Source: Haliotis asinina (taxonomy: Eukaryota; Mollusca; Gastropoda; Lepetellida; Haliotidae). From it: a stretch of 64,000 nt of DNA. The translations under genes and the position numbers were made by a program. The stretch covers positions 1,801,501 through 1,865,500 of the forward strand of contig NC_090285.1 of NCBI RefSeq assembly GCF_037392515.1. The letters are read 5' to 3'. Below, one piece after another: positions 7,546 to 64,000 of this stretch. A model generated the notes under the pieces. That model had not been told where the DNA came from. It did no database searches and saw nothing but the letters and a program-made list of their open reading frames with translations. Numbering within the stretch: the stretch's first letter is position 1; each line of letters starts with the position of its first letter.

Positions 7546-7574
7546 GGTGCAAAGGTAAATCATTTCCTTTTTCA

Positions 7575-7578
<4 letters not shown>

Positions 7579-7614
<36 letters not shown>
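7579..7614. repeat. (AG)n microsatellite
   Basis: Uninterrupted run of about 17 AG dinucleotides. Confidence 0.95.
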
Positions 7615-7618
<4 letters not shown>

Positions 7619-7635
7619 AGGGTTAAGACAGTTAA

Positions 7636-11210: not shown

Positions 11211-14200
11211 CATCCGGGACATTCAGAATTTGCTGACAAGTTGGGAATGTTATTTACTATCATCCGGGACATTCAATATTTGCTGACAAGTTGGGAATGT
11301 TATTTACTATCATCCGGGACATTCAATATTTGCTGACAAGTTGGCAATGTTATTTACTATCATCCGGGACATTCAATATTTGCTGACAAGTTGGGAATGT
11401 TATTTACTATCATCCGGGACATTCAGTATTTGCTGACAAGTTGGGAATGTTATTTACTATCATCCTGGACATTCAGTATTTGCTGACAAGTTGGGAATGT
11501 TTTTTACTATCATCCGGGACATTCAGTATTTGCTGACAAGTTGGGAATGTTATTTACTATCATCCTGGACATTCAGTATTTGCTGACAAGTTGGGAATGT
11601 TATTTACTATCATCCTGGACATTCAGTATTTGCTGACAAGTTGGGAATGTTATTTACTATCATCCTGGACATTCAGTATTTGCTGACAAGTTGGGAATGT
11701 TATTTACTATCATCCGGGACATTCAATATTTGCTGACAAGTTGGGAATGTTATTTTCTATGATCCGGGACATTCAGTATTTGCTGACAAGTTGGGAATGT
11801 TATTTACTATCATCCTGGTCATTCAGTATTTGCTGACAAGTTGGGAATGTTATTTACTATCATCCTGGACATTCAGTATTTGCTGACAAGTTGGGAATGT
11901 TATTTACTATCATCCTGGACATTCAGTATTTGCTGACAAGTTGGGAATGTTATTTACTATCATCCTGGACATTCAGTATTTGCTGACAAGTTGGGAATGT
12001 TATTTACTATCATCCGGGACATTCAGTATTTGCTGACAAGTTGGGAATGTTATTTACTATCATCCGGGACATTCAGTATTTGCTGACAAGTTGGGAATGT
12101 TATTTACTATCATCCTGGACATTCAGTATTTGCTGACAAGTTGGGAATGTTTTTTACTATCATCCGGGACATTCAGTATTTGCTGACAAGTTGGGAATGT
12201 TATTTACTATCATCCTGGACATTCAGTATTTGCTGACAAGTTGGAAATGTTATTTACTATCATCCGGGACATTCAGTATTTGCTGACAAGTTGGGAATGT
12301 TATTTACTATCATCCTGGACATTCAATATTTGCTGACAAGTTGGGAATGTTATGTACTATCATCCTGGACATTCAGTATTTGCTGACAAGTTGGGAATGT
12401 TATTTACTATCTTCCTGGACATTCAGTATTTGCTGACAAGTTGGGAATGTTATTTACTATCATCCGGGACATTCAGTATTTGCTGACAAGTTGGGAATGT
12501 TATTTACTATCATCCTGGACATTCAATATTTGCTGACAAGTTGGGAATGTTATTTACTATCATCCGGGACATTCAGTATTTGCTGACAAGTTGGGAATGT
12601 TATTTACTATCATCCTGGACATTCAGTATTTGCTGACAAGTTGGGAATGTTATTTACTATCATCCTGGACATTCAGTATTTGCTGACAAGTTGGGAATGT
12701 TATTTACTATCATCCGGGACATTCAGTATTTGCTGACAAGTTGGGAATGTTATTTACTATCATCCGGGACATTCAGTATTTGCTGACAAGTTGGGAATGT
12801 TTTTTACTATCATCCGGGACATTCAGTATTTGCTGACAAGTTGGGAATGTTATTTACTATCATCCTGGACATTCAGTATTTGCTGACAAGTTGGGAATGT
12901 TATTTACTATCATCCGGGACATTCAGTATTTGCTGACAAGTTGGGAATGTTATTTACTATCATCCGGGACATTCAGTATTTGCTGACAAGTTGGGAATGT
13001 TATTTACTATCATCCTGGACATTCAGTATTTGCTGACAAGTTGGGAATGTTATTTACTATCATCCGGGACATTCAGTATTTGCTGACAAGTTGGGAATGT
13101 TATTTACTATCATCCTGGACATTCAGTATTTGCTGACAAGTTGGGAATGTTATTTACTATCATCCGGGACATTCAGTATTTGCTGACAAGTTGGGAATGT
13201 TATTTACTATCATCCGGGACATTCAGTATTTGCTGACAAGTTGGGAATGTTATTTACTATCATCCTGGACATTCAGTATTTGCTGACAAGTTGGGAATGT
13301 TATTTACTATCATCCTGGACATTCAGTATTTGCTGACAAGTTGGGAATGTTTTTTACTATCATCCGGGACATTCAGTATTTGCTGACAAGTTGGGAATGT
13401 TATTTACTATCATCCTGGACATTCAGTATTTGCTGACAAGTTGGGAATGTTATTTACTATCATCCGGGACATTCAGTATTTGCTGACAAGTTGGGAATGT
13501 TATTTACTATCATCCGGGACATTCAGTATTTGCTGACAAGTTGGGAATGTTATTTACTATCATCCTGGACATTCAGTATTTGCTGACAAGTTGGGAATGT
13601 TATTTACTATCATCCGGGACATTCAGTATTTGCTGACAAGTTGGGAATGTTATTTACTATCATCCGGGACATTCAATATTTGCTGACAAGTTGGGAATGT
13701 TTTTTACTATCATCCTGGACATTCAGTATTTGCTGACAAGTTGGGAATGTTTTTTACTATCATCCGGGACATTCAGTATTTGCTGACAAGTTGGGAATGT
13801 TATTTACTATCATCCTGGACATTCAGTATTTGCTGACAAGTTGGGAATGTTTTTTACTATCATCCGGGACATTCAGTATTTGCTGACAAGTTGGGAATGT
13901 TTTTTACTATCATCCTGGACATTCAGTATTTGCTGACAAGTTGGGAATGTTATTTACTATCATCCGGGACATTCAGTATTTGCTGACAAGTTGGGAATGT
14001 TATTTACTATCATCCGGGACATTCAGTATTTGCTGACAAGTTGGGAATGTTATTTACTATCATCCGGGACATTCAATATTTGCTGACAAGTTGGGAATGT
14101 TATTTACTATCATCCGGGACATTCAATATTTGCTGACAAGTTGGGAATGTTATTTACTATCATCCTGGACATTCAGTATTTGCTGACAAGTTGGGAATGT

Positions 14201-17164
14201 TATTTACTATCATCCTGGACATTCAGTATTTGCTGACAAGTTGGGAATGTTATTTACTATCATCCGGGACATTCAGTATTTGCTGACAAGTTGGGAATGT
14301 TATTTACTATCATCCTGGACATTCAGTATTTGCTGACAAGTTGGGAATGTTATTTACTATCATCCGGGACATTCAGTATTTGCTGACAAGTTGGGAATGT
14401 TATTTACTATCATCCTGGACATTCAGTATTTGCTGACAAGTTGGGAATGTTTTTTACTATCATCCTGGACATTCAATATTTGCTGACAAGTTGGGAATGT
14501 TATTTACTATCATCCTGGACATTCAGTATTTGCTGACAAGTTGGGAATGTTATTTACTATCATCCGGGACATTCAGTATTTGCTGACAAGTTGGGAATGT
14601 TATTTACTATCATCCTGGACATTCAGTATTTGCTGACAAGTTGGGAATGTTATTTACTATCATCCTGGACATTCAATATTTGCTGACAAGTTGGGAATGT
14701 TATTTACTATCATCCGGGACATTCAGTATTTGCTGACAAGTTGGGAATGTTATTTACTATCATCCTGGACATTCAGTATTTGCTGACAAGTTGGGAATGT
14801 TTTTTACTATCATCCTGGACATTCAGTATTTGCTGACAAGTTGGGAATGTTATTTACTATCATCCTGGACATTCAGTATTTGCTGACAAGTTGGGAATGT
14901 TATTTACTATCATCCTGGACATTCAGTATTTGCTGACAAGTTGGGAATGTTATTTACTATCATCCTGGACATTCAGTATTTGCTGACAAGTTGGGAATGT
15001 TATTTACTATCATCCTGGACATTCAGTATTTGCTGACAAGTTGGGAATGTTATTTACTATCATCCTGGACATTCAGTATTTGCTGACAAGTTGGGAATGT
15101 TATTTACTATCATCCTGGACATTCAGTATTTGCTGACAAGTTGGGAATGTTATTTACTATCATCCTGGACATTCAGTATTTGCTGACAAGTTGGGAATGT
15201 TATTTACTATCATCCTGGACATTCAGTATTTGCTGACAAGTTGGGAATGTTATTTACTATCATCCTGGACATTCAGTATTTGCTGACAAGTTGGGAATGT
15301 TATTTACTATCATCCTGGACATTCAGTATTTGCTGACAAGTTGGGAATGTTATTTACTATCATCCGGGACATTCAATATTTGCTGACAAGTTGGGAATGT
15401 TATTTACTATCATCCGGGACATTCAATATTTGCTGACAAGTTGGGAATGTTATTTACTATCATCCTGGACATTCAATATTTGCTGACAAGTTGGGAATGT
15501 TATTTACTATCATCCGGGACATTCAGTATTTGCTGACAAGTTGGGAATGTTATTTACTATCATCCGGGACATTCAGTATTTGCTGACAAGTTGGGAATGT
15601 TATTTACTATCATCCTGGACATTCAGTATTTGCTGACAAGTTGGGAATGTTATTTACTATCATCCTGGACATTCAGTATTTGCTGACAAGTTGGGAATGT
15701 TATTTACTATCATCCTTGACATTCAGTATTTGCTGACAAGTTGGGAATGTTTTTTACTATGATCCGGGACATTCAGTATTTGCTGACAAGTTGGGAATGT
15801 TATTTACTATCATCCTGGACATTCAGTATTTGCTGACAAGTTGGGAATGTTTTTTACTATCATCCGGGACATTCAGTATTTGCTGACAAGTTGGGAATGT
15901 TTTTTACTATCATCCGGGACATTCAGTATTTGCTGACAAGTTGGGAATGTTATTTACTATCATCCTGGACATTCAGTATTTGCTGACAAGTTGGGAATGT
16001 TTTTTACTATCATCCGGGACATTCAGTATTTGCTGACAAGTTGGGAATGTTATTTACTATCATCCTGGACATTCAGTATTTGCTGACAAGTTGGGAATGT
16101 TATTTACTATCATCCGGGACATTCAGTATTTGCTGACAAGTTGGGAATGTTATTTACTATCATCCTGGACATTCAGTATTTGCTGACAAGTTGGGAATGT
16201 TATTTACTATCATCCTGGACATTCAGTATTTGCTGACAAGTTGGGAATGTTATTTACTATCATCCGGGACATTCAGTATTTGCTGACAAGTTGGGAATGT
16301 TTTTTACTATCATCCGGGACATTCAGTATTTGCTGACAAGTTGGGAATGTTATTTACTATCATCCTGGACATTCAGTATTTGCTGACAAGTTGGGAATGT
16401 TATTTACTATCATCCGGGACATTCAGTATTTGCTGACAAGTTGGGAATGTTATTTACTATCATCCTGGACATTCAGTATTTGCTGACAAGTTGGGAATGT
16501 TATTTACTATCATCCTGGACATTCAGTATTTGCTGACAAGTTGGGAATGTTATTTACTATCATCCGGGACATTCAGTATTTGCTGACAAGTTGGGAATGT
16601 TATTTACTATCATCCTGGACATTCAGTATTTGCTGACAAGTTGGGAATGTTATTTACTATCATCCTGGACATTCAGTATTTGCTGACAAGTTGGGAATGT
16701 TATTTACTATCATCCTGGACATTCAGTATTTGCTGACAAGTTGGGAATGTTATTTACTATCATCCTGGACATTCAGTATTTGCTGACAAGTTGGGAATGT
16801 TATTTACTATCATCCTGGACATTCAGTATTTGCTGACAAGTTGGGAATGTTATTTACTATCATCCGGGACATTCAATATTTGCTGACAAGTTGGGAATGT
16901 TATTTACTATCATCCTGGACATTCAGTATTTGCTGACAAGTTGGGAATGTTATTTACTATCATCCGGGACATTCAATATTTGCTGACAAGTTGGGAATGT
17001 TATTTACTATCATCCTGGACATTCAGTATTTGCTGACAAGTTGGGAATGTTATTTACTATCATCCTGGACATTCAGTATTTGCTGACAAGTTGGGAATGT
17101 TATTTACTATCATCCGGGACATTCAGTATTTGCTGACAAGTTGGGAATGTTATTTACTATCATC
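11211..17164. repeat. Large satellite block: 119 copies of a 50-bp unit
   Basis: The unit catccgggacattcagtatt plus 30 further bases repeats head to tail from 11,211 to 17,160, with a 4-base stub after. 5,950 bp divided by 50 is exactly 119, and the phase never shifts, so no insertion or deletion survived anywhere. Variation sits mainly at three two-state sites: unit base 6 (G or T), base 16 (A or G) and base 42 (A or T). Rare private changes occur elsewhere (for example ttggcaatgt near 11,345). The block is non-coding: stops occur in all frames. Confidence 0.97.
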
Positions 17165-45853: not shown

Positions 45854-48800
45854 ATGGACATCGCCATCATTGGTGTAGGATGCCGATTTCCCGGGGCTTC
45901 CTGTCTCAGGGAATTCTGGAGAGTCTTAGTCAAGGGAGAAAACCACGTGACAGACATCCCACCAGACAGATGGAATATGAGCAGTTTCTATGACCCGGAT
46001 GTAACCGCCACGGGCAAGTTCTACTCTAGAAAGGCGGGATTCCTAGAGAAGTAAGCCTGTAGTTGTCTGTAAGACCATTCTACTAGCCTAGATGATGAAA
46101 ACTTCAAACACTGAGCGACTTCGTGGTTGTTGAAGTGTCCCCCTTTTGCATTACTGGTCATAAGAAAATAAAAGTTATTTGTTTGAGAGGCTTTGAATGT
46201 TTACAAATTTGTTATCCCCCAAAACGCGTTTTACTGGTGGTATTAAAATGCGCTCCGTCTGTCCTTCCGTGCACATTCATCTTTTCCAGAGCAGGACCTT
46301 AAAACCGTTTAATACTTCTTCACCAAACTTTGCACATAGACAGCTCTGCCGGTGTACTGTGCCTTTTGGTAGTTTCTGGAATTCTGAAGAAACAGTTTTC
46401 GCGTTCCCATGGCAACAAATTTGACTTCGACTGAAATTGGTGGTAGTGCTCTTTTCCGGAGCCGAACCATAAAACCGTTCACTATTTCTTCACCAGAAGT
46501 GACACAGATATTGGTCTAGTGGTGTACTGGTGCCTTTTGGTAGTTTTGAAATTCTGAATAAAATAGTTTTGGTTTCTCCATGGCAACAATTTAGACTTCG
46601 ACTGAAATTGGTGGTAGTGCTCTTTTCCGGAGCAGAACTCTGAAACCGTTCACTAATTCTTCTCCAAACTTGGCGCATAGATAGATCTGGTGGTGCAATG
46701 GTGCCTCTTTTGCAGTTTGGGTATTCTGAATAAAATATTTTTGGCGGTTTTTACTTTCAAATTGGTAGTAGTGCTCTTTTCCGGAACAGAACTCTAAACC
46801 TGTTCACTATTTCTTCAACAAGCTTGGTCTAGTGGTGTACTGGTGCCATTTGGTAATTTGAAATCATGATTAAAATATTTTGGTGTTTCCATGGCAACAG
46901 ATTTGACTTAGACTGAAAGTGGTGATTGTGCTCCTTCCAGGAGCAGAACCTTAAAAACCTTTCATTGTCCTAGCTCCTTCCACTTTTCTATAGGCACATC
47001 AAAACATTTGGCATAATCATAACTTGTAGACATAATCATGAAGAATATTTTGCCGTTGCGGGGGATATTGATGACGTTGTCTTCTTGCTATTCCAGTTAT
47101 GCAGACTTTGACAACAAACTGTTCGGTATCAGCGAGAGCGAGGCTGGTCAGATGGACCCCCAGCAGCGCCAGGTGTTGGAGTGCACGTACATGACGCTTG
47201 AGAACGCTGGCATCACCAGACAACATATAGCAGGACAGAACGTCGGAGTATACATAGGTAAGTCATGTAGACGTCACGCTGCAGGCAGATGACCAACACC
47301 ATACATGTACTCCAATCCAACAGACAAAACACAAGGGTATGTCTACTGTAACAGATATGGAGTGCCACACTTTTTTAGGTCACATTCCCTGATGTGAAAC
47401 AGGCTCCAATGTTTGGAGTTTATCTGGAGGAAAATCTAAAGATGTATTAATGAGGCGGCTGGAAGACTCCATAACAAACATTTCGATATCCATAGGTGTA
47501 ATATGTGTGAAGCCCATCTTGTTCCCAGTTGTGGAGTTCTTTTTCTAAATTGTGGAATAAGTCTAATCTCGGTCACTCTGGAAAGAACACAAGTGATGAC
47601 GGGAGTCTATAAGCTACTCATTTACCCCCCACCAGGTGCCATGAACAGCGACTTCACGGTGAGGATGACTGCCAACTCTCACGAGATCGACCACTACTCT
47701 GTTGCTGGTCTCGCGGGAAGTGTCTTAGCCAACAGAGTGTCCTACGTGTACAACTTGTCCGGGCCCTCCATGGTAGTGGACACAGCCTGTTCCTCGTCTC
47801 TGGTGGCAATACACCAGGCAAGTCTGGCCCTCCGAGCAGGTGCGTGTACATCCCGTCACAGTCACACTCCTGTTATATTTACAGTTGGCTCCCCACTACA
47901 TCTTACACTAATTTCGAAAATTAGTTTTAAATATGTCCACATGTTCAACTGCAAATGCAACGTATTTTGTGATGTCAGATATCTACCTTTTCTCTGCAAT
48001 GTGAACTGTAACCCATATATGTCTGCACATTTTGTGAAGACGTCTCCAAAATGACATTATTTTCTGACGATAATCGATTCATTGCTTCAAATATACTCGT
48101 ACCTATATTTCTGTATACTGAAGAAGGTAGCTGAACACTGTCTGGACATGTATGTCTCACCAACTATCCCCATGTGTTGTCCAGGAGACTGTGAGATGGC
48201 ACTCTGTGGGGGCGTGAACCTGCTGCTGCACCCCACAGTGTTTGTCCCCCTAAGCAAGGCCCAGATGCTGTCCCCCAGTGGACAGTGCCACGCCTTTTCC
48301 TCTAACGCCGACGGGTACACAAGGGGAGAGGGATGTGGCATGGTCCTCATCAAGCCACTAGCACAGGTGAGCGAGTTGGTGTTGCTGTCATTTTCTTTCA
48401 GTTTTATCAGGTCGTATCTGATGTTGGAGGAGTTGGTTTCACTCGACATGAGACACGAGTATTAACATACTTTGCAAACTAGAATCATAGTATTACGTTT
48501 CTGCCACGCCCAAGGGACGCAACTCTGTATGGCGAATGGCGGCGTGTTTAAAAACCTGATTATCCATTGCTCCATACAAAAATGAGATCCCCTACTTTAC
48601 TTTGTCTGGGTATTATATCAAAGTGTGAAACCGAGTCACATGTTCAGATCATAGGCTGTTCCATATCAAGTATGTCTTCGCTAGAATCAGATTAAGTGAA
48701 TGGTTTGTATCCATGTTGAAGGCACTTCATGATGGTGACAACATTTGGGCCACGGTTTCTACTGGTGTGAACCAAGATGGCCGAGCGGCCCAACCAATCA

Positions 48801-51800
48801 CAGCGCCATCTGGTAACCAGCAGCTTCAACTACTCCACGACCTCTACAGGGCACATGACGTGGACCCTTACACCGTTGAATACATTGAGGCTCACGGTAG
48901 GTCTGTGTGTCCATGTGTTACGCTGTACTTTCGTAGTGTTCTTTTATCTGCCAATGATCAGCGTGCAGATGCACATTGAGTACATAACATGCATTCCTGA
49001 AAATATAACTTACAGTTAATTTAATATCTGAGATCACTAACTTGTATTACTTTCGGTGATTTGACATTGTCAGCTCTGAATCAATATGATATAATTATCT
49101 TTCACAGGTACTGGCACCAAACTTGGTGACCCTATCGAGGTCAACGCGTTTGGAGAATTCTTTACCTCTGATAGGAATCCAAGGACACGTTACATGGGCT
49201 CCGTGAAGACCAATATAGGCCATCTGGAACCGGCAGCAGGCGTGGCAGGTCTTATAAAAGTCTTGCTCATGATGAAACACAACACAATCGTACCATCTCT
49301 TCATTTCGATAAACCAAACGAACACATAAACTTTGAAAATTTTCGGTTTATCATTCCACAAGATCCTTTGCAATGGACTTCAGTTACGAAAGTAGCTTGC
49401 CTGAATTCATTTGGTTTTGGCGGAACTAACAGTCATGCAGTTTTACACAGTTTCAATAAACCACCACATGCCAGCAGACCCATTTTGGGGGCTTCGCATA
49501 TTGTTTGTTTTTCAGGCAGCACCTCAGAGTCATTGAAGAAGAGTCTTGAGGATTTCCTCTCCTGTGACGATTTCATAGACGATGACCTGCCAGCAATGTC
49601 CTACACATCGACAGTCAGAAGGGAACATTTCACGCATAGAAAGTCATTTGTTGTAAAAAGTATTAATGACTTGAAACAGCAAGTACAAATGATACTAAAA
49701 AGCAGAGACGTTGCTGACATTAAGACAAGCAAATTGAAGATTATCTTCGTCTTTTGTGGGATGGGCACTGCTTGGTCGGGTATGTGTGATGGCTTCATGA
49801 AAAAGAACAAAACTTTCAGCACAACGATCAACACGATTGACGCGTCTTTGAAAAAGTTCGTCTCCTGGTCATTGACAGAGAGGCTCAGAAACGGTTATGA
49901 TGTACAAGACCCTAATTTCGGTCCAATCGCCATATTTGCTTGTCAGGTCGCTCTTGCCAAGCAGTGGGAGTCCTGGGGAGTAAGCCCAGCCGCTGTTGTT
50001 GGTCAGTCAGTTGGGGAGGTGGCCGCGGCACACGTTGCTGGCATTCTGTCTCTGGATGAAGCTGTCAAGGTCATCTTCCACAGGACTCGAATCCTGGCTG
50101 AAGTCACAGGAGGTAAGATGGTTCTTATAAGAAACCTTAAGACAGAGAAGGTACAAGACATTTGTGAAGAAGCTGCAGGCGTGAATATTGCAATTCGTTA
50201 CAGTCCTGTGTCGTGTACAATTAGTGGTGACTCTACTGCCGTGGATGAGGTGAAGTCACGTCTTCAGTCCTCTCACAGCGATCTTATGCTGACTGATCTC
50301 CCTGTTAGTGCTGCATACCATAGCCACCACATGGACCGATGCACGCAGCAGCTGGACAACATATTAGCTGACCTGAAACCATCACCAGCGAGGATACATA
50401 TGATATCAACAGCCGCATCTCGCCCCACAGAGAAAGATGTAACGTCTTCTGAATACTGGGGTGCTAATGTTCGCAATGCTGTTCAGTTTGCTTCGGGAAT
50501 AGAAAATTCTACCTCTGTCAATCATCTCAATGTATTTATAGAAATTGGTCCTAAGCCAGTATTGAGAGCTCATATTGATGACATTTTTCAGGAAAGAGCA
50601 GGATCGTGTATATGCCTTCCTTCCTTGACAGTCAAGCTTAGAGAAAAGACGATCCTGGGGACACTGTCTGAGCTGTACCAGATGGCCATGAACATAAACT
50701 GGCGGGAGCTGTTCAGCTACACAGAACCCCCAACGCCGGTACCGAGTTATGCCTTCTCACACAAGCACCTAATGATCTTGCCTCCAATTACAGAAGAAGA
50801 AGTGTTTGGATCTAATGGAAACTCTGGAAGTCACCTCTTTGTGAAACTGTCACCTTCCACGGGCAAGTGCATACTGAACATCAAACCTTCTAACTTTGGA
50901 ACTGTCTATGAACACAAGGTCAAGGACATTATTGTCATCCCAGGTGCAACCTACGTGGAAGCAGGGTTTGGAATCGCAAGATCAATGAATATTGCTGATG
51001 TTAGACATCTAGTGGTATCTGTCAGCTTTCTGAATCCAGTTACTTTGAAGAAGGACGTGTCTGTTCAGCTGGATGCTGTGATTGAAGATCAAAGCCAAAC
51101 TACGAATGACTGTACCAAAGAATTCACCATCAAAAGTACTGGTGACGTCATTGCCAAAGGCAGAATGCTGGTGTGCCACAATGAACTTGAAGAGGAACGG
51201 ATGGACATTGAGGCCATAAAGGAGAGATGTATCCAAACAGTCACGGGCGAAGAAGTGTATCAAGTTCTGCAATATTCTGGATTTACATATGGAACTAACT
51301 TTGCAACTGTACACTATGCATTAAGAGGGAACGCAGAGAGTCTCACAAGCCTAACAGTCGGGCAAAAGCTGAAAGAGGAGATGACCCACACTGTGATTCA
51401 TCCGGCAATACTTGATGGAATGCTGCAGTCAGCAGCTGCATTCGACATGCAAGAAAGGGAGTTTCTCCCAGTCGAGCTCAAGAATGTAATCGTCAGGCAT
51501 CCAGTGGAGACAGATATGTTTGTTTATACAAGAATTACAGACAGCAACGGATCCCACACATCCTTTACCTTAACACTTCTTTCGCCCAATGGAACTGTCA
51601 TAGCACATGTTGAAAGATTCACAACACAATTTATTGGGTCAGATACTTTTGATATTCACAAAGCGACATTCAAAACAAGCATGGTGTTGTTGGATTCTTG
51701 TGCAGTTCCTCAGAACAGTGTTGATACTGGAACTGTCGTCTTCACCAATGCAGATCTAACCAGTGTGGAAACATCCTGTGTCATACATGAATTGGATCAC

Positions 51801-54800
51801 ATGGGAGTTGAAGGCACAAGACACGCTCTTGACTCTGTCATACACAACATCAAGCAAATCTGTTTCGTATTTGCAGCACCTGATATAAAAACTGACCGGG
51901 GAGAATCCCTTCAAGAAGAACTCACGAGAAGGATAATGGCCTTGAGACTGATCGCCCTTTACCTAGCCAGTAGAGGGGTGTCTGTGCCTCTGGTGATAAT
52001 TTCAGAAATAGAAACCACTGGAGATACCATTGCAACTGGCTGTCTCAGTGAAGCTGTCAAAGGTTTCATCAGGTGTGTCTTAAGGGAGTACAGAGCTCTT
52101 CACGTTCAGCTTGTGGATGTTCTAGTTGACAATGACAGGGACTTCTTAGAAAGGCTTCCAGGGATATTACCACAATGCAGATCTGATGACTTCAAAAGGT
52201 ACCCTGAGATAGTTCTTCACAATGATCAAGTCTACATGCACACAATTATGTCATACCCATGCCTGCAACCAACGTTTCGATCAGTTATAATGGATGAACG
52301 TTCTGAGGGCATGCTGTGCACAAAATCAAAGACATCAATAACCAAACCATTTTTCTACCCCAAACAAAAGACAGCTACATCCATGAAGGATATGACCGAT
52401 ATAGAGGTGACTTCTGTGGTTGTCCATAGCTCCCTGATGCATGGACTTCACATTGGGTGCCCTGCAGGGTCCACAGTCGATATCCACCCAATTCTGTGTC
52501 TTGAAACAATTGGTAAACTGCCCATGGGATCCAGACGTAGCCATCCCGATGCAATAACCCTGTTTCCTTCAAACGTTTGCAAGAGTATCCAGGTTCCAAA
52601 GGACTGCACCATAGACGCAGGACAGGTGCCTGGTTATGCTCCAGGTCATCTTACAACACTTTATCTAATGTGGAATTTGTCCATTAACACAGCAAGGAAC
52701 AACATTGTCATTTTGTACACAAACAGCTCAAAGCCATTTGCAAATGCACTGTCATACTTGCTTCTTTCACAAGGGGCAAAGAAAGTGTCATTAGCCAACC
52801 TAAACGACACTGCACAGCAAAGAAATGACTCTGTAACGTTGATTCCGACGGTTTTACTGACGAAGGTGGAAGCAAAAAGACTGTTGACAACATTCACAAA
52901 TGTACTGAAAATAATTTGCTTTGAACCTATCACTAAAAGATCTGCCCAGGAGTATCTACTTGCGGCTTTGCAAAACTTGCAGCTTCACATCATACGACCA
53001 TTTGAAATTTTCTCTCCAAGGGTAATGTCTGCAACAGTGCCCAAAATGATTAAATGGATCACATCCCACAGTAAGACAGTCTTCAACATATGTCATAGCT
53101 TCAGTGGCATCACGGTATCTAAGAAAGAACAAACAGCTCCCCCACTGAACATTTCAGAAGTTCTTAATAGCACCGTGTTGTCCTTGTCTTCAGATAGCAG
53201 CTTGGACATGGATTCTATGGTGACACCAAGTACCCACCTATTTCAGAAGACTGCTTCCTATCTGGTTGTGGGAGGTCTCACGGGGCTGGGATGGGAATGT
53301 GTGACATTCCTTGCAGCCAGAGGAGCTGGATGTGTGATCATTCTGAGCAGACGTACGCCTAACCCTGAACGACAAGCAGATATGGACCATCTGTCTCAGA
53401 AACATAAGTGCCACATAACATCCATTCAAGCTGATGTCACTGTCTACAAGGGCCTGGAATCAGCTGTATTAAAGATAAAGACACATATGAAACCTCTCAA
53501 GGGTGTATTTTACGGTGCAGCGGTTTTACAGGATGCCTCCCTCTCTGAGATGACAGAGGAAAAGCTCGCCACAGCTATGTCTCCAAAGGTAACAGGTGCT
53601 TGGAATCTTCATATCCTGACAGCAGATCTTCCTCTTGACTTTTTCGTCCTGCATTCTTCTGGGGCAGCTGTTCTGGGGAATGCTGGTCAGTCAAACTATG
53701 GAGCTGGTAATGGATTCTTGGATGGATTGGCAGTGTACAGAAGGCAGCGTGGAATGAGTGGCCAGAGCATCAACTGGGGACCTCTCGACCTTGGGATGCT
53801 AGAGAACAAAGGATCTGTACTGAGGAAGCTGGAGAGTCAAGGGTACATGATCATTGGCAAGAAGGATATCAGTCAGTGCCTGACACACATGCTCATGCTG
53901 AATGAGCCGCAAGCCCTGGTGTGCAGAATAGACAGACAGAAAATGGCAGAGCAATTACAAAGGGATAAGGAAACAACACTTATGGTACGACTTAAGACAT
54001 ATTTGGAACCTGCCATGAAGATAATAAATCAAAAGGCAACATCGGAAGGGGGTAAATGCTCTTTCAGTGTTGACAAACTACAGAGATGCACAGAGGAGGA
54101 GAAGCTGCAGATGTTGAGGGAATATGTAAAACACCTTGTGTGTGATAAGGCTTTGTTGGATATAAACAGTTTTCAGATGGACGCCAACATGAAGGATCAA
54201 GGTGTGGACTCAATGTATGCCATGGAAGTTACTGGCGGAATCTTGTCAGACATTGGAGTAAAGCTGTCCACCCACGAAATCCAGCTTCAATCGACAAACA
54301 GCATTGCCAGGAGAATACTGGATATACTATCAGGTACAGGGAAGGAACAGACACAAGTCTGTGACATGGAGTCCGTCATAACTAAACAAGCAATAAGCAT
54401 GTCAATTGCGAAGTCAATCTGTGGGATGAAGACAAACTGTGAACATAACATGGGTTTTGTAATCATCAGTACCATTTCAGTTCCAGATGTGGTAAATGTA
54501 TCAACATTGATAGCGGTGGCAAAAGAATGTGTATCACGTCATCAGGTCACAAGAACCTCTTACATCCTAAGCCATAACAAAGTTTCCACAAACATGTTGC
54601 CCCTGGAGGATGCTTTTGACTTCCGTGTACTCTCCGGAGATGACCTGTCCGAGGTCAGGAAACATACAGAGGAGTCAATGCATCTTCGGCATAAGAGTCC
54701 TTTACGATTCATATTTCTTACAAGATCCTTACAGCTCAGAATCGTTTTCCACAGACTTGCATTTGATTTGAAGGCCATCACAATCTTTGTGAAGGAACTT

Positions 54801-55706
54801 GAAAGTATGGCCAATGCAGCGCTGCTGGGCAAACCCCTGGAAGATGTCGTAACTGATCCAGATGAGGATGTTGCGAAAGAAATCCAGAAAGTTCTTGCTC
54901 CAGATTTCAAGAGAGTGAACCAGTTTTGGAAGACAAAGGCAATGTGCATACCCTACAACAGCCTATCGAAAGCGCCAGTTATACACAATTTACAAAATAA
55001 CCACATCTTCCTCACACGACCAATAAACAGTCACCTGTACACAAAGATCTTGAAATACGCAAAGGACAGAGGACTCACACCTTTTGATTACCTTGCCAGT
55101 ATCTACCAGCTATTTCTTGCCTTTGTCAGCAGGAAAACAACATCAACTATCACGACCTCAGTTGACCTTCGTAGCTTGGTTCCCGCTCTGACCAGAACCC
55201 TTGGAAGATGCACGAACTTCATCCCCCTGATATGCCAAGTACCCGAAGACAACACAACAGTGGAGGAGTTCCTACAGCACAACAAGAAGACTATACAACA
55301 TTTCACCCAATATGCAATATATCCGTCAGACGAAATCAAGAAACTGATTCCCGAGGACAAAAGCCTGGGTCCAAACTACTTCATATATGAGACTGATACC
55401 ATCACCAATACGTCTAACCAGTTGACAGTAGACATGCCGGTCGTCTTTGATTCCTCCATTGAAACTTTCATGTACATTTGGCAGAGGAAGGAGACGAGAC
55501 TCATGGAGATCAGGTTTCATCTGAGGAAGGACCTGTTCACTAACCCGAGGGCTGAGGTCCTCGTCAAGGCATTCCTAGGTCTAATGGATGATTCTTTGAA
55601 CTTCCCTGACTCAACTTTAGGGCATCTAAGACAACAAAACTACATGGCCTTGGACGAAAGGAGCTCCAAGAAACGTGTCCTGTCTGCATTGTGCTCTCTG
55701 ATGTAA
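45854..55706 (+). CDS. Type I iterative polyketide synthase, KS-AT-DH-deadER-KR-ACP-condensation-like (6 coding exons)
   Basis: Coding exons: 45,854-46,050; 47,097-47,257; 47,636-47,839; 48,185-48,366; 48,722-48,896; 49,108-55,706. All have GT/AG borders. The sum is 7,518 nt: 2,505 residues and TAA. The start was chosen because the KS begins at once ([14 protein letters not shown]) after a strong acceptor at 45,832. Key residues: KS C171, H306, H345; AT S607 and H711; DH H909 and D1076; KR S1824, Y1837, N1841; ACP S2008. The C-terminus is a condensation-like domain, not a thioesterase. Expected action: repeated malonyl-type extension in the cytosol with ketoreduction and dehydration but no cis enoyl reduction, giving a polyene chain; the release route is unknown. 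KS wording ([12 protein letters not shown]) is PKS-type, unlike animal fatty acid synthase (KSNMGHPEPASG). Product unknown. Introns lie only in the KS part. Confidence 0.93.
46213..47088. mobile_element. Inverted-repeat element with internal ~170-bp units, family D copy 2 (PKS intron 1)
   Basis: Opens tatcccccaaaacgcg and closes gttgcgggggata (47,055-47,067), with about four internal units (ctcttttccggagcagaact, aaccgttcactatttctt, gtggtgtactggtgcc, ccttttggtagttt). Homology with 25,129-25,660 continues to gtcttcttg at 47,088, eight bases before exon 2 of the PKS. It fills most of intron 1 (46,051-47,096). No coding capacity. Confidence 0.75.
47258..49107. other. PKS introns 2-5
   Basis: Introns at 47,258-47,635, 47,840-48,184, 48,367-48,721 and 48,897-49,107, between 211 and 378 bp each. 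Nothing else was recognised within them. Confidence 0.8.
49734..50680 (+). other. PKS domain: acyltransferase (residues ~516-830)
   Basis: [13 protein letters not shown] opens the domain (family GQGSQW). The nucleophile elbow is [12 protein letters not shown] with S607; the usual GHSxG His is Gln. The second catalytic His (H711) sits in AAYHSHHMD. The motif that predicts extender choice (HAFH malonyl, YASH methylmalonyl) is neither, so the substrate cannot be assigned. Confidence 0.9.
50841..51685 (+). other. PKS domain: dehydratase (residues ~885-1165)
   Basis: Double hot-dog motifs are present: [12 protein letters not shown] with H909 (the conserved Gly of HxxxGxxxxP is Asp) and [10 protein letters not shown] with D1076. 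Both catalytic residues are kept, so activity is likely. Confidence 0.88.
51831..53228 (+). other. PKS region: KR structural subdomain and degenerate enoylreductase (residues ~1215-1680)
   Basis: Residues ~1215-1400 resemble the structural half of a ketoreductase ([20 protein letters not shown]). Residues ~1415-1680 follow ER order and spacing, with [15 protein letters not shown] where an ER substrate region is expected, but the nucleotide-binding GGVG motif is replaced by NSSKP, so NADPH binding is not expected. No methyltransferase domain was recognised. Confidence 0.65.
53241..53845 (+). other. PKS domain: ketoreductase (residues ~1685-1885)
   Basis: NADPH loop [11 protein letters not shown] from residue 1693. 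The catalytic Ser (HSSGAA, S1824), Tyr (SNYGAGN, Y1837) and Asn (N1841) have normal spacing, and a Lys upstream (SPKVTGAW) is also in place. Confidence 0.92.
54081..54323 (+). other. PKS domain: acyl carrier protein (residues ~1965-2045)
   Basis: [12 protein letters not shown] carries the phosphopantetheine Ser (S2008) in the standard GxDS context. Only one ACP, consistent with an iterative single-module enzyme. Confidence 0.92.
54396..55628 (+). other. PKS domain: C-terminal condensation (NRPS C)-like domain (residues ~2070-2480)
   Basis: Order and wording fit the condensation fold: [18 protein letters not shown] at the HHxxxDG site (H2188, D2193), [19 protein letters not shown] at the bridge region, and [13 protein letters not shown] at the site of the family GNFVNTLPLR motif. 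The second His, the catalytic one in NRPS C domains, is Arg2189 and the Gly is Leu2194, so ordinary condensation chemistry is doubtful. A relative in the same CoA-acyltransferase fold is the main alternative. Confidence 0.75.
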
Positions 55707-57802: not shown

Positions 57803-60800
57803 TCATTCATACATGTCTGAATACAACTCCTGCCCAATACGTATATACTCGTCCTTCTCTGCTGGGGTCATCTGCTCCACCATGTCAGGGGTCACTTCCT
57901 GATAGGGCACCTTGCGGAGACCAATTGTTACCATGGGAACACTCTCTTCTTCATCATCACTGTCCATTTCTTCAACAACTGAGTAACACAAAACTTCTTC
58001 AATGAGTATCAGAGTTAGAATGTACACTTTGGAATCTTGTTTACAGATATGTAGCAATGCATTGATTGTGAGTGAAAAATGGCACACTTTGATACCTATT
58101 GGAATAATGCCCTGAACTGACATTGTTTTCAGTGTCCAAGCAGGCTTGTAGAGTTGAGGTCTCACAAGGGAGTGTGACATTAAGGTGTTATCAAGCAAAG
58201 GATGGTGTTAGTATTTAGATCATAAAAAATGCACTTTTTGTAATAAAGAAATTGTACATCCATAGAATTATCTCATTTCTTCATCATATCAACTTCTAAA
58301 TGACAACTAAAGAAGTCATCAAGCTTTCAGCTCCAGCATAGATAAGCAGGGGCAGACCTAGGAATCTGGGGGGTTGGCTAATACCACAACTGGTTAAATT
58401 TTTGATAGGAGGGTCCATGTGCCCCAACAGGTTAATTTTAGGTTGGTAACTTTTAGATTTGGGTGTTTTCAACTCAATGTATTACACAATATATATGCTA
58501 GTAAACTGTTTTAATAAGCTTGCTCATTCATGATCATGAAAGAAACCCCATACTGAATGTTACCACATGGGAGAGTTTTAGAAAAATATGCTTTCACTGG
58601 CTGAACTTACTGCATATGGATTAAAACTGGTTCACATAATAGTCTTTTGCGTGAATGCAGTAAACAAAAACAATATTTATTGCATTATAGTTACTTGTAT
58701 TGTATGCCACACTAGTATTTTGGGGATGCACTGTTTTCAAATATTTTGTGTCCACAGGACGCAACCCAAAATTCTATCAGCGGCAATTGGTATTTTGATG
58801 CGGAAATGCTGCAGAAATGCATACTAGGTTTAACCCTGGACAAGAATCCATGTGAAGTAATTATGTGACTTATAAGACAAAACAATTAACAGGGCACAGC
58901 TAGGTTTCTGTCCACTTAAACACATAACATTGCAATTTGAAATAGGATATAATCAGCTAAAGTTTTTAGGCTGCAACAATTCAACCTGATTCATCGAAAA
59001 CTGAATCTGACACCTTCGTTTTGATTTTCAATAACCATTTTCTCCATTTCGAGTTCAAACTTGAGTGGTGTTCTGCATTTAAACATCATATTTTCATTTT
59101 TTTAAAAAGGTTACATCCTTTACATTCCAGGGCCTCCTTTCACAAAGCAACTTTTACTAAGGTTAACTTTAACTCCCATCCTTTAACACTGCACTAAGGT
59201 TACAATAGATTTAGGTTACCTTAAAGAATGTGAGTTAAGTTTAACCTTAGTAAAGGTTGTTTTGTGAAAGGAGACCCTGATCTGGTCAAATCTTGAAAAA
59301 AGTTTTCTGTGTGATACGTTTTGTTTCTTAAACTGTGAGAATTAGAGGAAATCTGATGTTTTTACTTTTATGAAGAATCGAACTGAAAATGATCGCATTG
59401 TGGGTCCAATATCGAAAATTGAATCAAGGTCAGCGTGATCTGTTGGCAGTCCTACTAGTTTTGGATCTTGTATTTTCTCAATGCATAACATATGTGATAT
59501 TATTTCTTTATTTCTTTTATTACTCCACAATGATGATTATCATAACTTTTCCAAATATTTTTCTGTAACATGTTGCCCAAGACATCCTACTTGAAAAATG
59601 CTCCACAATCATGCTTTGTTCATTAGGAGCTATGCTTCAAACAGCAACAGGTGCTATCAGTTTCTTAACAACTGTAAAACTTATATATTTATGAGAAAAG
59701 AATATCTTTCCTGCATCAGAAACATTACAATGTCACTCCAACATGAGGTAAATGGTTGAAAGGTTTCTTGATATGATGGCAGTTTAGAGAAATATACCAA
59801 CATGAGGTAAATGGTTGAACGTTTTCTTGATATGATGGCAGTTTAGAGAAACACACCAACATGAGATAAATGGTTGAAAGTTTTCTTGATATGATGGCAG
59901 TTTAGAGAAATACACCAACATGAGGTAAAGCTGTCTTGACATGATGGCAGTTTAGAGAAATACACCAACATGAGGTAAATGGTTGAAAGGTATTTTAATA
60001 TCATGGCAGTTTAGAGAAATACACCAACATGAGGTAAATGGTTGAAAGTTTTCTTGATATGATGGCAGTTTAGAGAAATACACCAACGTGAGGTAAATGG
60101 TTGACAGTTTTCTTGATATGAAGGCAGTTTAGAGAAATACACTAACATGAGGTAAATGGTTGAAAGGTTTCTTGATATGTTGGCAGTTTAGAGATATACA
60201 GCAACATGAGGTAAATTGTTGAAAGGTTTCTTGATATGATGGCAGTTTAGAGAAATACACCAACGTGAGGTAAATAGTTGAAAGTTTTCTTGATATGGTG
60301 GCAGTTTAGATAAATATACCAACAAACCTCCATGTGATGGACCAGGTTTCGGGGCTTCATCTTCTGATGAACTACTGGAGTTTTCTTCCACTCTGTCTGT
60401 TGGGATCCGGAGTCCAGCGCCAGGCTTGGATTGTTCATGTACCAGAAGGGCATTCATCACCTCATCATTGGCGTTCACCTGAGACAAGTCCTGAGATGGG
60501 CCAGCATCAAAAGCACTCTCCATCTAGAAAATTGAAAGAAGTTGACATTATCGTATTGAGACTGCACTGCACTCAGTAATATTGCAGGAATATTGCCTGT
60601 TAGTAATCTGGTCAGGACTAGACAATCTAGCCACTGGTGCTAGTTTGTGCCATCATGGTACTGTGACATTTTGTCGCAACTTGTGATCATCAATTCATTA
60701 GTTACTTGAGACCTTTGATTATTTACTGCCATGTACGAAAAAGCACAACCACGGGTTTGGTGAAGCCACTGCCATGGGTACAGAGCTGAGCAACAATCAA

Positions 60801-62696
60801 AAGAATGGTGGAACAACAACCACTGGCATGCTGAAACCACTGCCATTTGTACAGTGCTGGCATATCAAGGCAACAGTTGAACTGACATTCACACCTAAAG
60901 AAACCATGTTTAGACACACAGAGGCAGTCTGGCACGCCAGCCGCTGGACTGAAACCTGTCCAGCAGAATTCTGATCAGTGTGGTAAGCTCATCAAATAAA
61001 AGACCAAATATTACCACTAAATCATAACAAGGATATAAAAAGATGCCAAAAGGTTTAGGGCACACACTGCTCAGGTACTAATGGCAGGAAAACAATCTGA
61101 CAACCAATGACCAATATATCAATCAGCAAAATGTTTACATTTCAAGAAAGTTAGATCCAACACAAATAAATAATAACTGCTTGCACATTGCCATATAGCA
61201 TCTCATTTCTTACCATTCATGGCACTAATAAAGATTTGCCAGTACAAATAATTCATTTCACACAAACAAGAGGAAAGGTGAAGAATACAAAGTGAAGTAT
61301 GTTACAATCTTACATGACTTCATCGCAGGGTCAGTGACATATAGCTGGTGATGACGTTACCTGTGCGTCAATGACAGTGGCACCCTCTACAGTGCTCTTG
61401 GACATCCATTCAGGTACCTCCTTCTTCTGCACCGTCCCATTCTTTTCATCCTCATCCATACTGATGGTGATACGGTTGTCTGTGTAGCCAAAGCGATTGT
61501 TCCGAGACAGTTCCCCGCTCCAGACCATTTTTTCGGCATCTACATTGGGCCTGTTCTTGTCACTTGGCGCCCTGCAGATTGTGTACAGATATATGACACA
61601 CACTGTTACCATTTTTCTTCTTCATGATCTTTGTATGTGACAATGGCAGGTGAAGACATCTCATCTACACTTTGTTCTGTACTCATTATTATCCTAGTCT
61701 GTCACATCCCCCACATAATTTTCCCATCCACACAGCCCTGTCTGCAATGCTAATGCCCTTGATAAAGCAAGTCTGGATTTCCTCTGGTTCAGGAATCTCC
61801 CATCTCACTGGGGCTTGTTTTCAGTTCAAAACAAATCACTTGTTTCTATATGTAATCCAGGACTAAGCATAACTCTAATTGTTACCTCATTAAATCAGCA
61901 TTAAATATTTTCTAACCAAATTCATACATCTTTCTGCAAACAAAATGATGACATGTCGACTTAATTCTTCAGTCATTATCAACGTTATCATTCTATGAAA
62001 ATGACAGTAAAACCAAACATACAAAAGGGGTGATTGAAACAAAACTTACCTTGGTAATAATTTCTTGATGTCAATAGGTTCTGGTTCTAATATTTCAGGT
62101 GCAAGTTTGATATCCTCACAATCTCGTAATAAGTCGTATATGACCTGAATCTGTTCGTTAAATTTGGCCATGGTTGTGCGAGCATCTTTCTTTGGCATGG
62201 AGCTCTCATCCTCTTCCACTTCAGTTTGGCAGTAGGTGCACTGTAATGAGCCTGTCATTGGGTCTACGAGCTGCCCAACTTCCAGGTCAGTATATGACTT
62301 CAAACAGTTTGGACATTTAAATGAGGCACGACTTGTGTTATCACGTTCCTCAAGCTCAATCTTTCTCCTCATATGATCAAGCTTGTATTTCACCACATTC
62401 ACAAAGACATTATAATTAATGAAATAATAATTGTGCCTTGTTGTCTTTCCTTCTGCATCAGTCTCTACCCTCATTCTCACTTTCAGAATCTTGTCTACTT
62501 TCAAAGAGTTGATGATTGCTCTAAGTTGTTTCCTTTCAAACTTGAGCAACTCTAACATATCATCCTCCTTAATACAGGGATTCCTGACCAGCATGTCAAT
62601 AACTATGGCTGTTTCAACAGTATAGAACCCTCGCACTATCAGCCGAATCAGTCGCTTGAGGGAGTCAGGAACTTCAGTTGCTATATCTGTGTCCAT
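57803..62696 (-). CDS. GTF2E1: General transcription factor TFIIE subunit alpha (4 coding exons)
   Basis: Exons in transcript order: 62,696-62,050; 61,571-61,361; 60,523-60,328; 57,978-57,803. GT/AG borders and phases agree; total 1,230 nt, 409 residues (the human protein is about 440). Residues ~10-110 are the winged-helix domain ([25 protein letters not shown]). The zinc ribbon has C128, C131, C153 and C156 (FKCPNC, LQCTYC). [13 protein letters not shown] follows, then an acidic Ser-rich linker (SSSSSEDE) and the conserved C-terminal end ([17 protein letters not shown]). TFIIE alpha pairs with TFIIE beta in the RNA polymerase II pre-initiation complex and recruits and regulates TFIIH in the nucleus. 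The start aligns with the human N-terminus (TEVP at residues 7-10). A leader-exon acceptor lies at 62,715-62,716. Confidence 0.97.
59130..59277. mobile_element. MITE, family E copy 2 (GTF2E1 intron 3)
   Basis: 148 bp; gggcctcctttcacaaagca at the left, inverse tttgtgaaaggagaccc at the right, with the inner inverted repeat ttttactaaggttaa/ttaaccttagtaaa. The same TTTCACAAAGC end as 43,405-43,549 but a different interior, so a related subfamily. Confidence 0.8.
59738..60323. repeat. 59-bp minisatellite in GTF2E1 intron 3, about 10 copies
   Basis: Unit atatgatggcagtttagaga plus 39 bases. One unit near 59,930 is shortened and the others differ by few bases. The array ends at the exon 3 splice donor. 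Confidence 0.93.
60565..60690 (-). mobile_element. CACT-tail SINE fragment (GTF2E1 intron 2)
   Basis: cactcagtaatattgcagg and ggtcaggactagacaatcta resemble the 3' half of the SINE in minus orientation; no CACT tail remains. Confidence 0.5.
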
Positions 62697-62714
62697 TATG
62701 GAACTGTTGGTACT

Positions 62715-62905: not shown

Positions 62906-63059
62906 CAGGCCCCCCTAAGTAATTGAAGGAATTACAGCAAATTTGAAGGAATTGCATCTCAAATGTAAACAAACGCAGCCCACTCGCGAAACAATTGCAG
63001 CGATATCGGTAGTTTAACGGTAATAACAGAAACACATCGGCCCTATCGGAAGCAATGTC

Positions 63060-63131
63060 GGTAATACTGGAAACACGATCGGCCATCTTCGGAGATTTTT
63101 CGGTCGCGAGCGGAAACTCACGCAGCAAAAC
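63060..63131 (+). promoter_or_regulatory. Promoter-like block in the left arm
   Basis: A CpG-containing stretch with the YY1-type motif gccatctt (cggccatcttcgg), just before the candidate start codon at 63,132. This is typical of TATA-less housekeeping promoters. The inverse copy lies near 63,725-63,796. Confidence 0.4.
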
Positions 63132-63161
63132 ATGGCATCGTTGGAAGAAGCACCCGTCTCG
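63132..63161 (+). CDS. Candidate first coding exon of a divergent gene (MASLEEAPVS)
   Basis: ATG through ten codons followed at once by a splice donor (gtgag at 63,162), preceded by a promoter-like block. The rest of the gene would lie beyond the window. In human, RABL3 (protein starting MASLD) sits head to head with GTF2E1; a RABL3 first exon is therefore a reasonable guess but rests on four or five residues. Confidence 0.35.
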
Positions 63162-63694
63162 GTGAGATTTGTTTTTAGTTCCTACTATTACATTTTCATA
63201 CTTATCCATCTTTGACCACCCGTGTTGAATGCGTTTAGGTATGAGGTGTTGTCGGGGCAATAGCTTATGTTTTTAGGAAAAGATTGTCACTGCAGAAGAG
63301 TGTCACAAGTCGTGCCCCTGGAGATTGTTTACATCTGAACATCGAAGTCGTGCCGATGATTACGAACATCATGAACGTGCGCCATGAAGAAGTTTAAGAT
63401 TTAAGAGTTTAATTTTTCTTGCTACGAGGTGCAATTGACAAATTTAAACACATTTTACAAAAAAAAAATGATGTTATATCTGGCGCACTTTCGTAATCAT
63501 CGGCACGACTTCGATGTTCAGATGTAAACAAACTACAGGGGCATGACTTGTGACGCTCTCCTAGAGTGACTATCTTTTCCTAAAAACATAAGCTATTGCC
63601 CCGACAACACCTCATACCTAAACGCATTCAACACGGGTGGTCAAAGATGGATAAGTATAAAAATGTAATAGTAGAAACTAAAAACAAATCTCAC

Positions 63695-63724
63695 CGAGAC
63701 GGGTGCTTTTTCCAACGACGCCAT
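63695..63724 (-). CDS. Mirror copy of the candidate exon (MASLEKAPVS)
   Basis: Inverse copy of 63,132-63,161 with one silent change and one E-to-K change, also followed by a gtgag donor. If spliced to the GTF2E1 acceptor (exon from 62,714) it stays in frame with the GTF2E1 start, so it could serve as an alternative upstream exon. Equally it may be a dead copy. Confidence 0.3.
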
Positions 63725-64000
63725 GTTTTGCTGCGTGAGTTTCCGCTCGCGACCGAAAAATCTCCGAAGATGGCCGATCGTGTTTCCAGTATTACCGACA
63801 TTGCTTCCGATAGGGCCGATGTATTTCTGTTATTACCGCTAAATTACCGATATCGCTGCGTTTGTTTACATTTGAGATGCAATTCCTTCAAATTTGCTGT
63901 AATTCCTTCAATTACTTAGGGGGGCCTGCTTTATGTTTATTGTTTATAGCCTATAATATCCCGGTTGGCCTATTATAGGCCGATCGGTATTTTCCCCTAT

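Follow-up and report, generated by a model that had tools for sequence, protein, structure and literature searches.

The closest described relatives of the gene analyzed here are the polyketide synthases (PKSs) of a mollusc clade that includes types with and without condensation (C) domains and in which the introns are few and concentrated in the N-terminal part (Lin et al. 2024, PMC10764717; this and the other cited papers are drawn on in excerpt). For most of the animal fatty acid synthase (FAS)-like PKSs (AFPKs) that lack a thioesterase (TE), the offloading mechanism is stated in the same source to be unknown. In glycopeptide synthetases, the X-domain recruits P450s (PMC6565677; PMC11546977), and the change of HHxxxDG to HRxxxDE in this domain is reported to abolish condensation and to block the channel (PMC6565677). 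The fungal PKS LovB uses the trans-acting enoyl reductase (ER) LovC and a separate thioesterase, LovG, for release (PMC7870829), so that product release is not necessarily the task of a terminal C domain. The subject of the present analysis is a gene for a PKS with a terminal C domain, the window copy, located in a 64,000-nucleotide stretch of the genome of the gastropod Haliotis asinina (the window; NC_090285.1, positions 1,801,501 to 1,865,500). In this domain and in those of its four paralogues, the second histidine of the HHxxxDG site is an arginine. We favor, at a probability of roughly 0.5, the reading that the terminal domain is non-canonical and probably non-condensing, with release done elsewhere.

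The window copy spans positions 45854-55706 of the forward strand, from the ATG at 45854 to a stop codon that ends at 55706, and encodes 2,505 amino acids (aa) without internal stops. It consists of six exons separated by GT-AG introns, all five of which fall within the first 919 coding nucleotides (nt). Exons 1-5 encode most of the ketosynthase (KS), and exon 6 (6,599 nt) completes the KS and continues, up to the stop codon, through the acyltransferase (AT), dehydratase (DH), structural pseudo-ketoreductase (psiKR), ER-like stretch (psiER), ketoreductase (KR), acyl carrier protein (ACP) and C regions. The features of the gene are as follows.

45854..46050, forward strand: exon 1 (KS), defined by the ATG start, a GT donor and alignment to four paralogues
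47097..47257, forward strand: exon 2 (KS), GT-AG
47636..47839, forward strand: exon 3 (KS, active Cys in DTACSSS), GT-AG
48185..48366, forward strand: exon 4 (KS), GT-AG
48722..48896, forward strand: exon 5 (KS, EAHG), GT-AG
49108..55706, forward strand: exon 6, with KS end, AT, DH, psiKR, psiER-like stretch, KR, ACP, C and stop, from Pfam
49740..50633, forward strand: AT domain (GQSVGE; AAYHS), PF00698, E 1.8e-53
50826..51638, forward strand: DH domain (HxxxDxxxxP, DGMLQ), PF14765, E 7.1e-20
51726..52253, forward strand: pseudo-KR (structural subdomain), approximate limits, from fold only (low-confidence model, secondary structure, fold search)
52254..53228, forward strand: ER-like stretch, probably dead, approximate limits, from fold order compared with the modifying regions of MAS, FAS and EcPKS1
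53250..53888, forward strand: KR domain with the active-site K, S, Y and N present, PF08659, E 1.4e-57
54111..54323, forward strand: ACP (GVDS), PF00550, 20.7 bits, cut-off 20.8
54441..55628, forward strand: terminal condensation-fold domain, PF00668, E 9.1e-17; best Foldseek match 8qnf, E 1.3e-18
54747..54767, forward strand: FHRLAFD, the HHxxxDG site with the second His changed to Arg (H2188, R2189, D2193) and the Gly after Asp to Leu, from alignments

The ACP and the C domain lie within a single uninterrupted exon, so that their joining does not depend on splicing, and the existence of four paralogues of like organization makes a chance or mis-spliced artefact very unlikely. Judged from the sequence, this anatomy, a six-exon PKS with a terminal C-fold domain, is nearly certain. 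A sequence-only reading of this DNA had proposed one spliced frame of this length with KS, AT, DH, KR and ACP motifs, and both parts of that proposal stand: exon 6 scores over the Pfam cut-offs for Ketoacyl-synt_C (6.3e-21), KAsynt_C_assoc, AT, PS-DH, KR and Condensation, and the catalytic residues are in place, with the ACP 0.1 bits short of its cut-off. PF00550 exceeds this cut-off in paralogues A, C and D, the three paralogues included in a scan of four of the five genes.

The paralogues come from PF00668 and KS profile searches of the 1.14-Gb genome, in which the window lies on contig C6. The PF00668 search yields four genes, namely the window copy and paralogues A, B and C at C6:61.18-61.36 Mb (loci L005-L010), and the KS search, with 13 matches, adds paralogue D at C6:61.50 Mb. 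The frame is intact in all five genes, and the intron positions of the window copy are kept in A-D, except that D lacks intron 2. The C domains of A, B and C are 82-93% identical to one another; between the window, D and A/B/C lineages, identity is 25-31% in the C domain and 66-69% in the KS, with the C domain and the middle region being the most diverged parts. Judging by these values, the five genes fall into three old lineages: the window copy, D, and A/B/C.

The terminal domain of the window copy scores 61.3 bits against PF00668 (gathering cut-off 30.6), and when the C-terminal 448 aa are scanned alone, PF00668 is the sole Pfam family (E 2.5e-18). Its predicted fold, of modest confidence, resembles the C domains of nonribosomal peptide synthetases (NRPSs), and all 50 of the top fold matches listed belong to C-type domains of NRPSs or PKSs. 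The earlier identification of this region as condensation-like is borne out by both profile and predicted fold, as is that of an animal PKS ending without a TE: Pfam scans of exon 6 and of the C-terminal region give no carnitine acyltransferase, chloramphenicol acetyltransferase (CAT) or TE. With PF00668 alone in the window copy and C-type folds throughout the best matches listed, the suggestion that the C-terminal part is one of these three enzymes instead of a C domain found no support and is scarcely credible. PF00668 matches four of the five genes; the C domain of paralogue D (L025:6495-7811), without a match at E<=1, retains FHRxxFD and is about 30% identical to its counterpart in the window copy. 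Among the C-terminal parts of the paralogues, weak Pfam matches to DUF3829_2nd (2/5, best E 0.0058) and TerL_ATPase (1/5, E 0.023) were taken as chance. A search for bacterial or viral relatives with back-translated C-domain patterns gave 133 matches in a set of genome contigs and 52 in a set of viral contigs, of which tblastn confirmed none; this search is uninformative on the origin of the domain because the method needs near-exact motifs.

At the HHxxxDG site, the window copy reads HRLAFDL, and A-D read HRIGFDH or HRVAFDH, so that all five genes retain the first His and the Asp and have Arg for the second His and Leu or His for the Gly; the canonical HHxxxDG occurs in none of them. The five specified residues of FHRxxFD are invariant across the five genes, and three invariant columns in a row occur in the C-domain alignment only at FHR. 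The HR pair is thereby found in about three diverged lineages. In HMMER alignments to TomBC and LgrA, the Arg falls on the second His without gaps. When the motif half of the domain is compared as a profile with the PDB, an X-domain comes first (6m7l, 5.2e-5), followed by TomBC (1.7e-4) and a second X-domain (4tx2, 6.1e-4); both X-domain chains read HRIAAD at the motif. In the open-licence PMC literature, no report of the HR motif in animal PKSs was found, and HRxxxD in condensation domains appears, in the accessible text, in a C-domain review and in a kistamicin study, both times for the X-domain.

The protein-level maintenance of the domain was assessed by the ratio of nonsynonymous to synonymous substitution rates (dN/dS; Nei-Gojobori, own script) for the pairs A-B, A-C and B-C, that is, three of the 10 possible pairs. 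In this order, the values are 0.26, 0.19 and 0.21 for the C domain, compared with 0.17, 0.21 and 0.25 for KR, 0.09, 0.19 and 0.21 for KS, 0.14, 0.13 and 0.12 for AT, 0.43, 0.11 and 0.12 for ACP, 0.26, 0.33 and 0.31 for DH, and 0.28, 0.36 and 0.36 for the middle region. The C domain is therefore similar to KR and below the middle region in these pairs, and its low dN/dS argues for protein-level maintenance, at least among A, B and C. These values, together with the five intact frames and the invariant FHRxxFD, make it improbable that the C domain is a vestige decaying after the loss of its original function, as might otherwise be read from the lost second His and Gly, the failure of D to match PF00668 and the low identity between lineages. 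Between A and C, the synonymous distance (dS) is 0.15 in AT and 0.21 in KR, and 0.39-0.53 in KS, DH, the middle region, ACP and C; this mosaic suggests that gene conversion between the tandem copies has affected AT and KR.

A domain that selection maintains although the second His and the Gly are missing is most likely to serve as a platform or gate. Several observations weigh against this reading. When the profile of the whole C domain is compared with the PDB, catalytic C domains come first (TomBC, 8qnf, 4.8e-11; LgrA, 3.3e-8; SgcC5, 6.7e-5) and X-domains lower (6m7l, 2.3e-4; 4tx2, 2.3e-3), and the HR letters within the motif-half profile themselves raise the ranking of X-domains there. Retention of the first His and the Asp is what an altered active site would require, and the mean predicted local distance difference test score (pLDDT) of the C-domain model, 57.9, is too low to judge tunnel blockage. 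Streptothricin ORF18, which reads HQxxxDM, is active despite the loss of the second His (PMC11546977), so that the inactivity of the HR domain is here something that we infer. In the window copy, the evidence of constraint consists of the open frame and the shared motif, given that dN/dS covers A, B and C only. Finally, no candidate partner enzyme came to light nearby: the scored P450 and ADH_zinc_N matches of the genome all lie outside the window and outside C6:61.18-61.51 Mb (for P450, 92 of the 777 candidates were scored).

Part of this evidence fits a different explanation, under which the C domain actively releases the product as an acyltransferase whose non-canonical site (H2188, R2189 and D2193, or another base) would transfer the polyketide from the ACP to a free amine, an alcohol or CoA. 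Purifying selection in A, B and C, the invariant residues of the site, the better fit of the whole profile to catalytic C domains, the activity of the HQxxxDM variant (PMC11546977) and the need for some release step in a gene without a cis TE are all in line with such an enzyme, whereas in all five genes Arg stands in place of the His that is widely regarded as catalytic, the same change is reported to be inactivating in X-domains (PMC6565677), and an acceptor-loading module was not found. We give this explanation somewhat worse than even odds, and an active non-canonical C domain is only slightly less likely than a platform. In favor of the platform reading, a separate NRPS C domain was not found in the genome, where the four PF00668 matches are all in these PKSs; this search missed D, so that a diverged separate C domain could be missed too.

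If the domain is non-condensing, as we favor, the enzyme could work as follows. The KS, AT, DH, KR and ACP would build chains iteratively from (probably) malonyl units, chain building and reduction being expected from the retention of their catalytic motifs, and the chains would be reduced to alcohols or alkenes by keto reduction and dehydration, with cis enoyl reduction absent. The C-fold domain would be a tethered platform or gate beside the ACP, for a partner enzyme or for the acyl chain, a role modelled on that of the X-domain in glycopeptide synthetases. Release would be left to a separate hydrolase or acyltransferase, or to spontaneous cyclisation. A more specific proposal, which we advance tentatively, is that an animal lineage turned an NRPS C domain into a catalytically silent docking or gating domain via a convergent, X-domain-like His-to-Arg change, and that this domain recruits to the ACP an enzyme that acts in trans in tailoring or release. 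Among candidate partners, FSH1, a family that we take to be LovG-like, has one match in the genome, on C1; the phosphopantetheinyl transferase family PF01648 has none, which is uninformative as genes were searched exon by exon. Should the mollusc C domain not be a condensation catalyst, annotation that equates a ‘C domain’ with amide formation would give wrong predictions for an entire family of animal enzymes, and the conserved HR motif offers a direct test between a catalyst and a docking site.

The remaining domains are those of a partly reducing enzyme. The window copy has the Cys/His/His of KS, the Ser of AT, the His and Asp of DH, the Lys/Ser/Tyr/Asn of KR and the Ser of ACP, the catalytic motifs of these domains; the AAYHS motif in AT points to malonyl-like specificity. 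In DH, the window copy and D share HxxxDxxxxP, where A, B and C have HxxxGxxxxP. No methyltransferase family was detected in the Pfam scan of exon 6. The psiER label reflects fold order only, taken from a model with a pLDDT of 48.7. This stretch is without a GGVG-type motif at the presumed NADPH site, and a 295-aa profile gave six PDB matches at E<=10, the best (0.01) to ornithine cyclodeaminase, with ER absent among them; the stretch matches no Pfam family in the window copy and MIT_C, weakly (E 0.15), in one paralogue.

With respect to kinship, the KS (420 aa) has as its top PDB row a putative PKS, 7zma (1.2e-200, 670 bits over two stretches); the best single stretches are those of CurL (386 bits, 2.3e-114), LovB (307) and FAS (276-280), and EcPKS1/2 do not appear in the top 60 of the 71 KS rows (E<=1e-60). 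This comparison of bit scores is a proxy for the HMM test of Lin et al. 2024. Exon 6 gives 341 bits with MAS, 311 with DEBS chimeras, 237 with LovB, 210 with FAS and 184 with EcPKS1. By these scores, the window enzyme is PKS-like rather than AFPK- or FAS-like, and a fungal origin is not indicated. The sequence-only reading had likened the layout to that of LovB: the similar domain order survives, and the ER-like stretch is perhaps degenerate by fold, but the Pfam scan finds no methyltransferase and kinship in sequence is not supported, given the higher KS score of the bacterial CurL and the absence of a LovB or MokA match to the C-domain profile at E<=10 (with the motif half, MokA appears at E=0.25). 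Acquisition of a LovB-like fungal enzyme by transfer, with the C domain in the role of the LovB CON domain, would account for the domain order apart from the methyltransferase and for the ER-like stretch of the low-confidence fold. It is very unlikely in view of these scores and of the five introns common to the paralogues (one fewer in D) and the adjoining TFIIE-alpha gene, which suggest a long-resident animal gene. The C-mediated release implied in that reading has become doubtful as well, considering that LovB needs LovG (PMC7870829) and that the second His is Arg in five of five genes.

The DNA beside the window copy is ordinary animal DNA. The TFIIE-alpha gene lies on the reverse strand, with its C-terminal exon at 57803-58207 (Pfam E 6.3e-18) and its N-terminal exon, recognized by eye only (zinc-finger CPNC...CTYC), at 62046-62714. 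The window also contains a 6-kb satellite (11210-17164; 50-bp unit, 119 copies, 97% match), an inverted repeat resembling a foldback element (62906-63928; arms of 378 nt, 96%, and 74 nt, 100%) and, at 6739-7626 on the forward strand, a reverse-transcriptase fragment (RVT_1, E 1.4e-8), probably a retroelement remnant. Elsewhere in the genome, the KS matches include a mitochondrial-type one on C1, a weak one on C3 and an exon on C5 that was identified by eye as FAS-like. The FAS-like gene on C5 combines the KS exon with a TE match about 12.5 kb downstream, and at C3:63.078-63.108 Mb, on the reverse strand, a weak KS-end match is 30 kb from a TE match, which may mark a second FAS-like or AFPK gene with a TE. 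At C2:96.256-96.318 Mb, 16 matches to the haemocyanin beta-sandwich family, a molluscan one, fall into two sets of eight, as two molluscan haemocyanin genes of eight units each would give, and they support the assignment of the genome to a mollusc.

Compared with known systems, the window gene differs from animal FAS, which has a C-terminal TE, in being without one by Pfam. The AFPKs EcPKS1 and EcPKS2 are also molluscan, lack a TE and have a modifying region related by fold; they are FAS-like, match the window gene less well in sequence and, in the excerpts drawn on, have no C domain reported. LovB and MokA share a similar domain order that ends in ACP-C and the absence of a cis TE, whereas LovB has an active methyltransferase, of which Pfam detects none in the window gene, and the sequences are not close. 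The glycopeptide X-domain (6m7l, 4tx2) shares the C fold, HRxxxD, the loss of the motif Gly and the placement after a carrier protein. In glycopeptide NRPSs, a TE follows the X-domain. The last motif residue of the X-domain is D or E and that of the window family H or L, so that HRxxxDD/E is not found here; the X-domain belongs to bacterial NRPSs, its overall sequence similarity to the mollusc domain is weak (E 2.3e-4), and P450 recruitment is reported for the X-domain. The closest correspondence is with the mollusc C-domain PKS clade (PMC10764717), which likewise consists of animal PKSs that are not AFPKs, with a C domain and few N-terminal introns: the window gene has a KS more PKS- than FAS-like, a C domain without a TE, and few introns, in the N-terminal part. 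It is best explained, on sequence evidence, as an intact, iterative, partly reducing type I PKS of this clade, predicted to be organized as KS-AT-DH-psiKR-psiER-KR-ACP-C. Because the gene fits the description of Lin et al. 2024 on every tested point, the layout is not unreported but already known in silico, and is biochemically uncharacterised as far as the literature found goes. Section 8 of that paper, in its accessible text, gives no active-site motif or mechanism for the mollusc C-domain PKSs. To the layout reported there, the present analysis adds the HR motif in a C domain that shows purifying selection among A, B and C.

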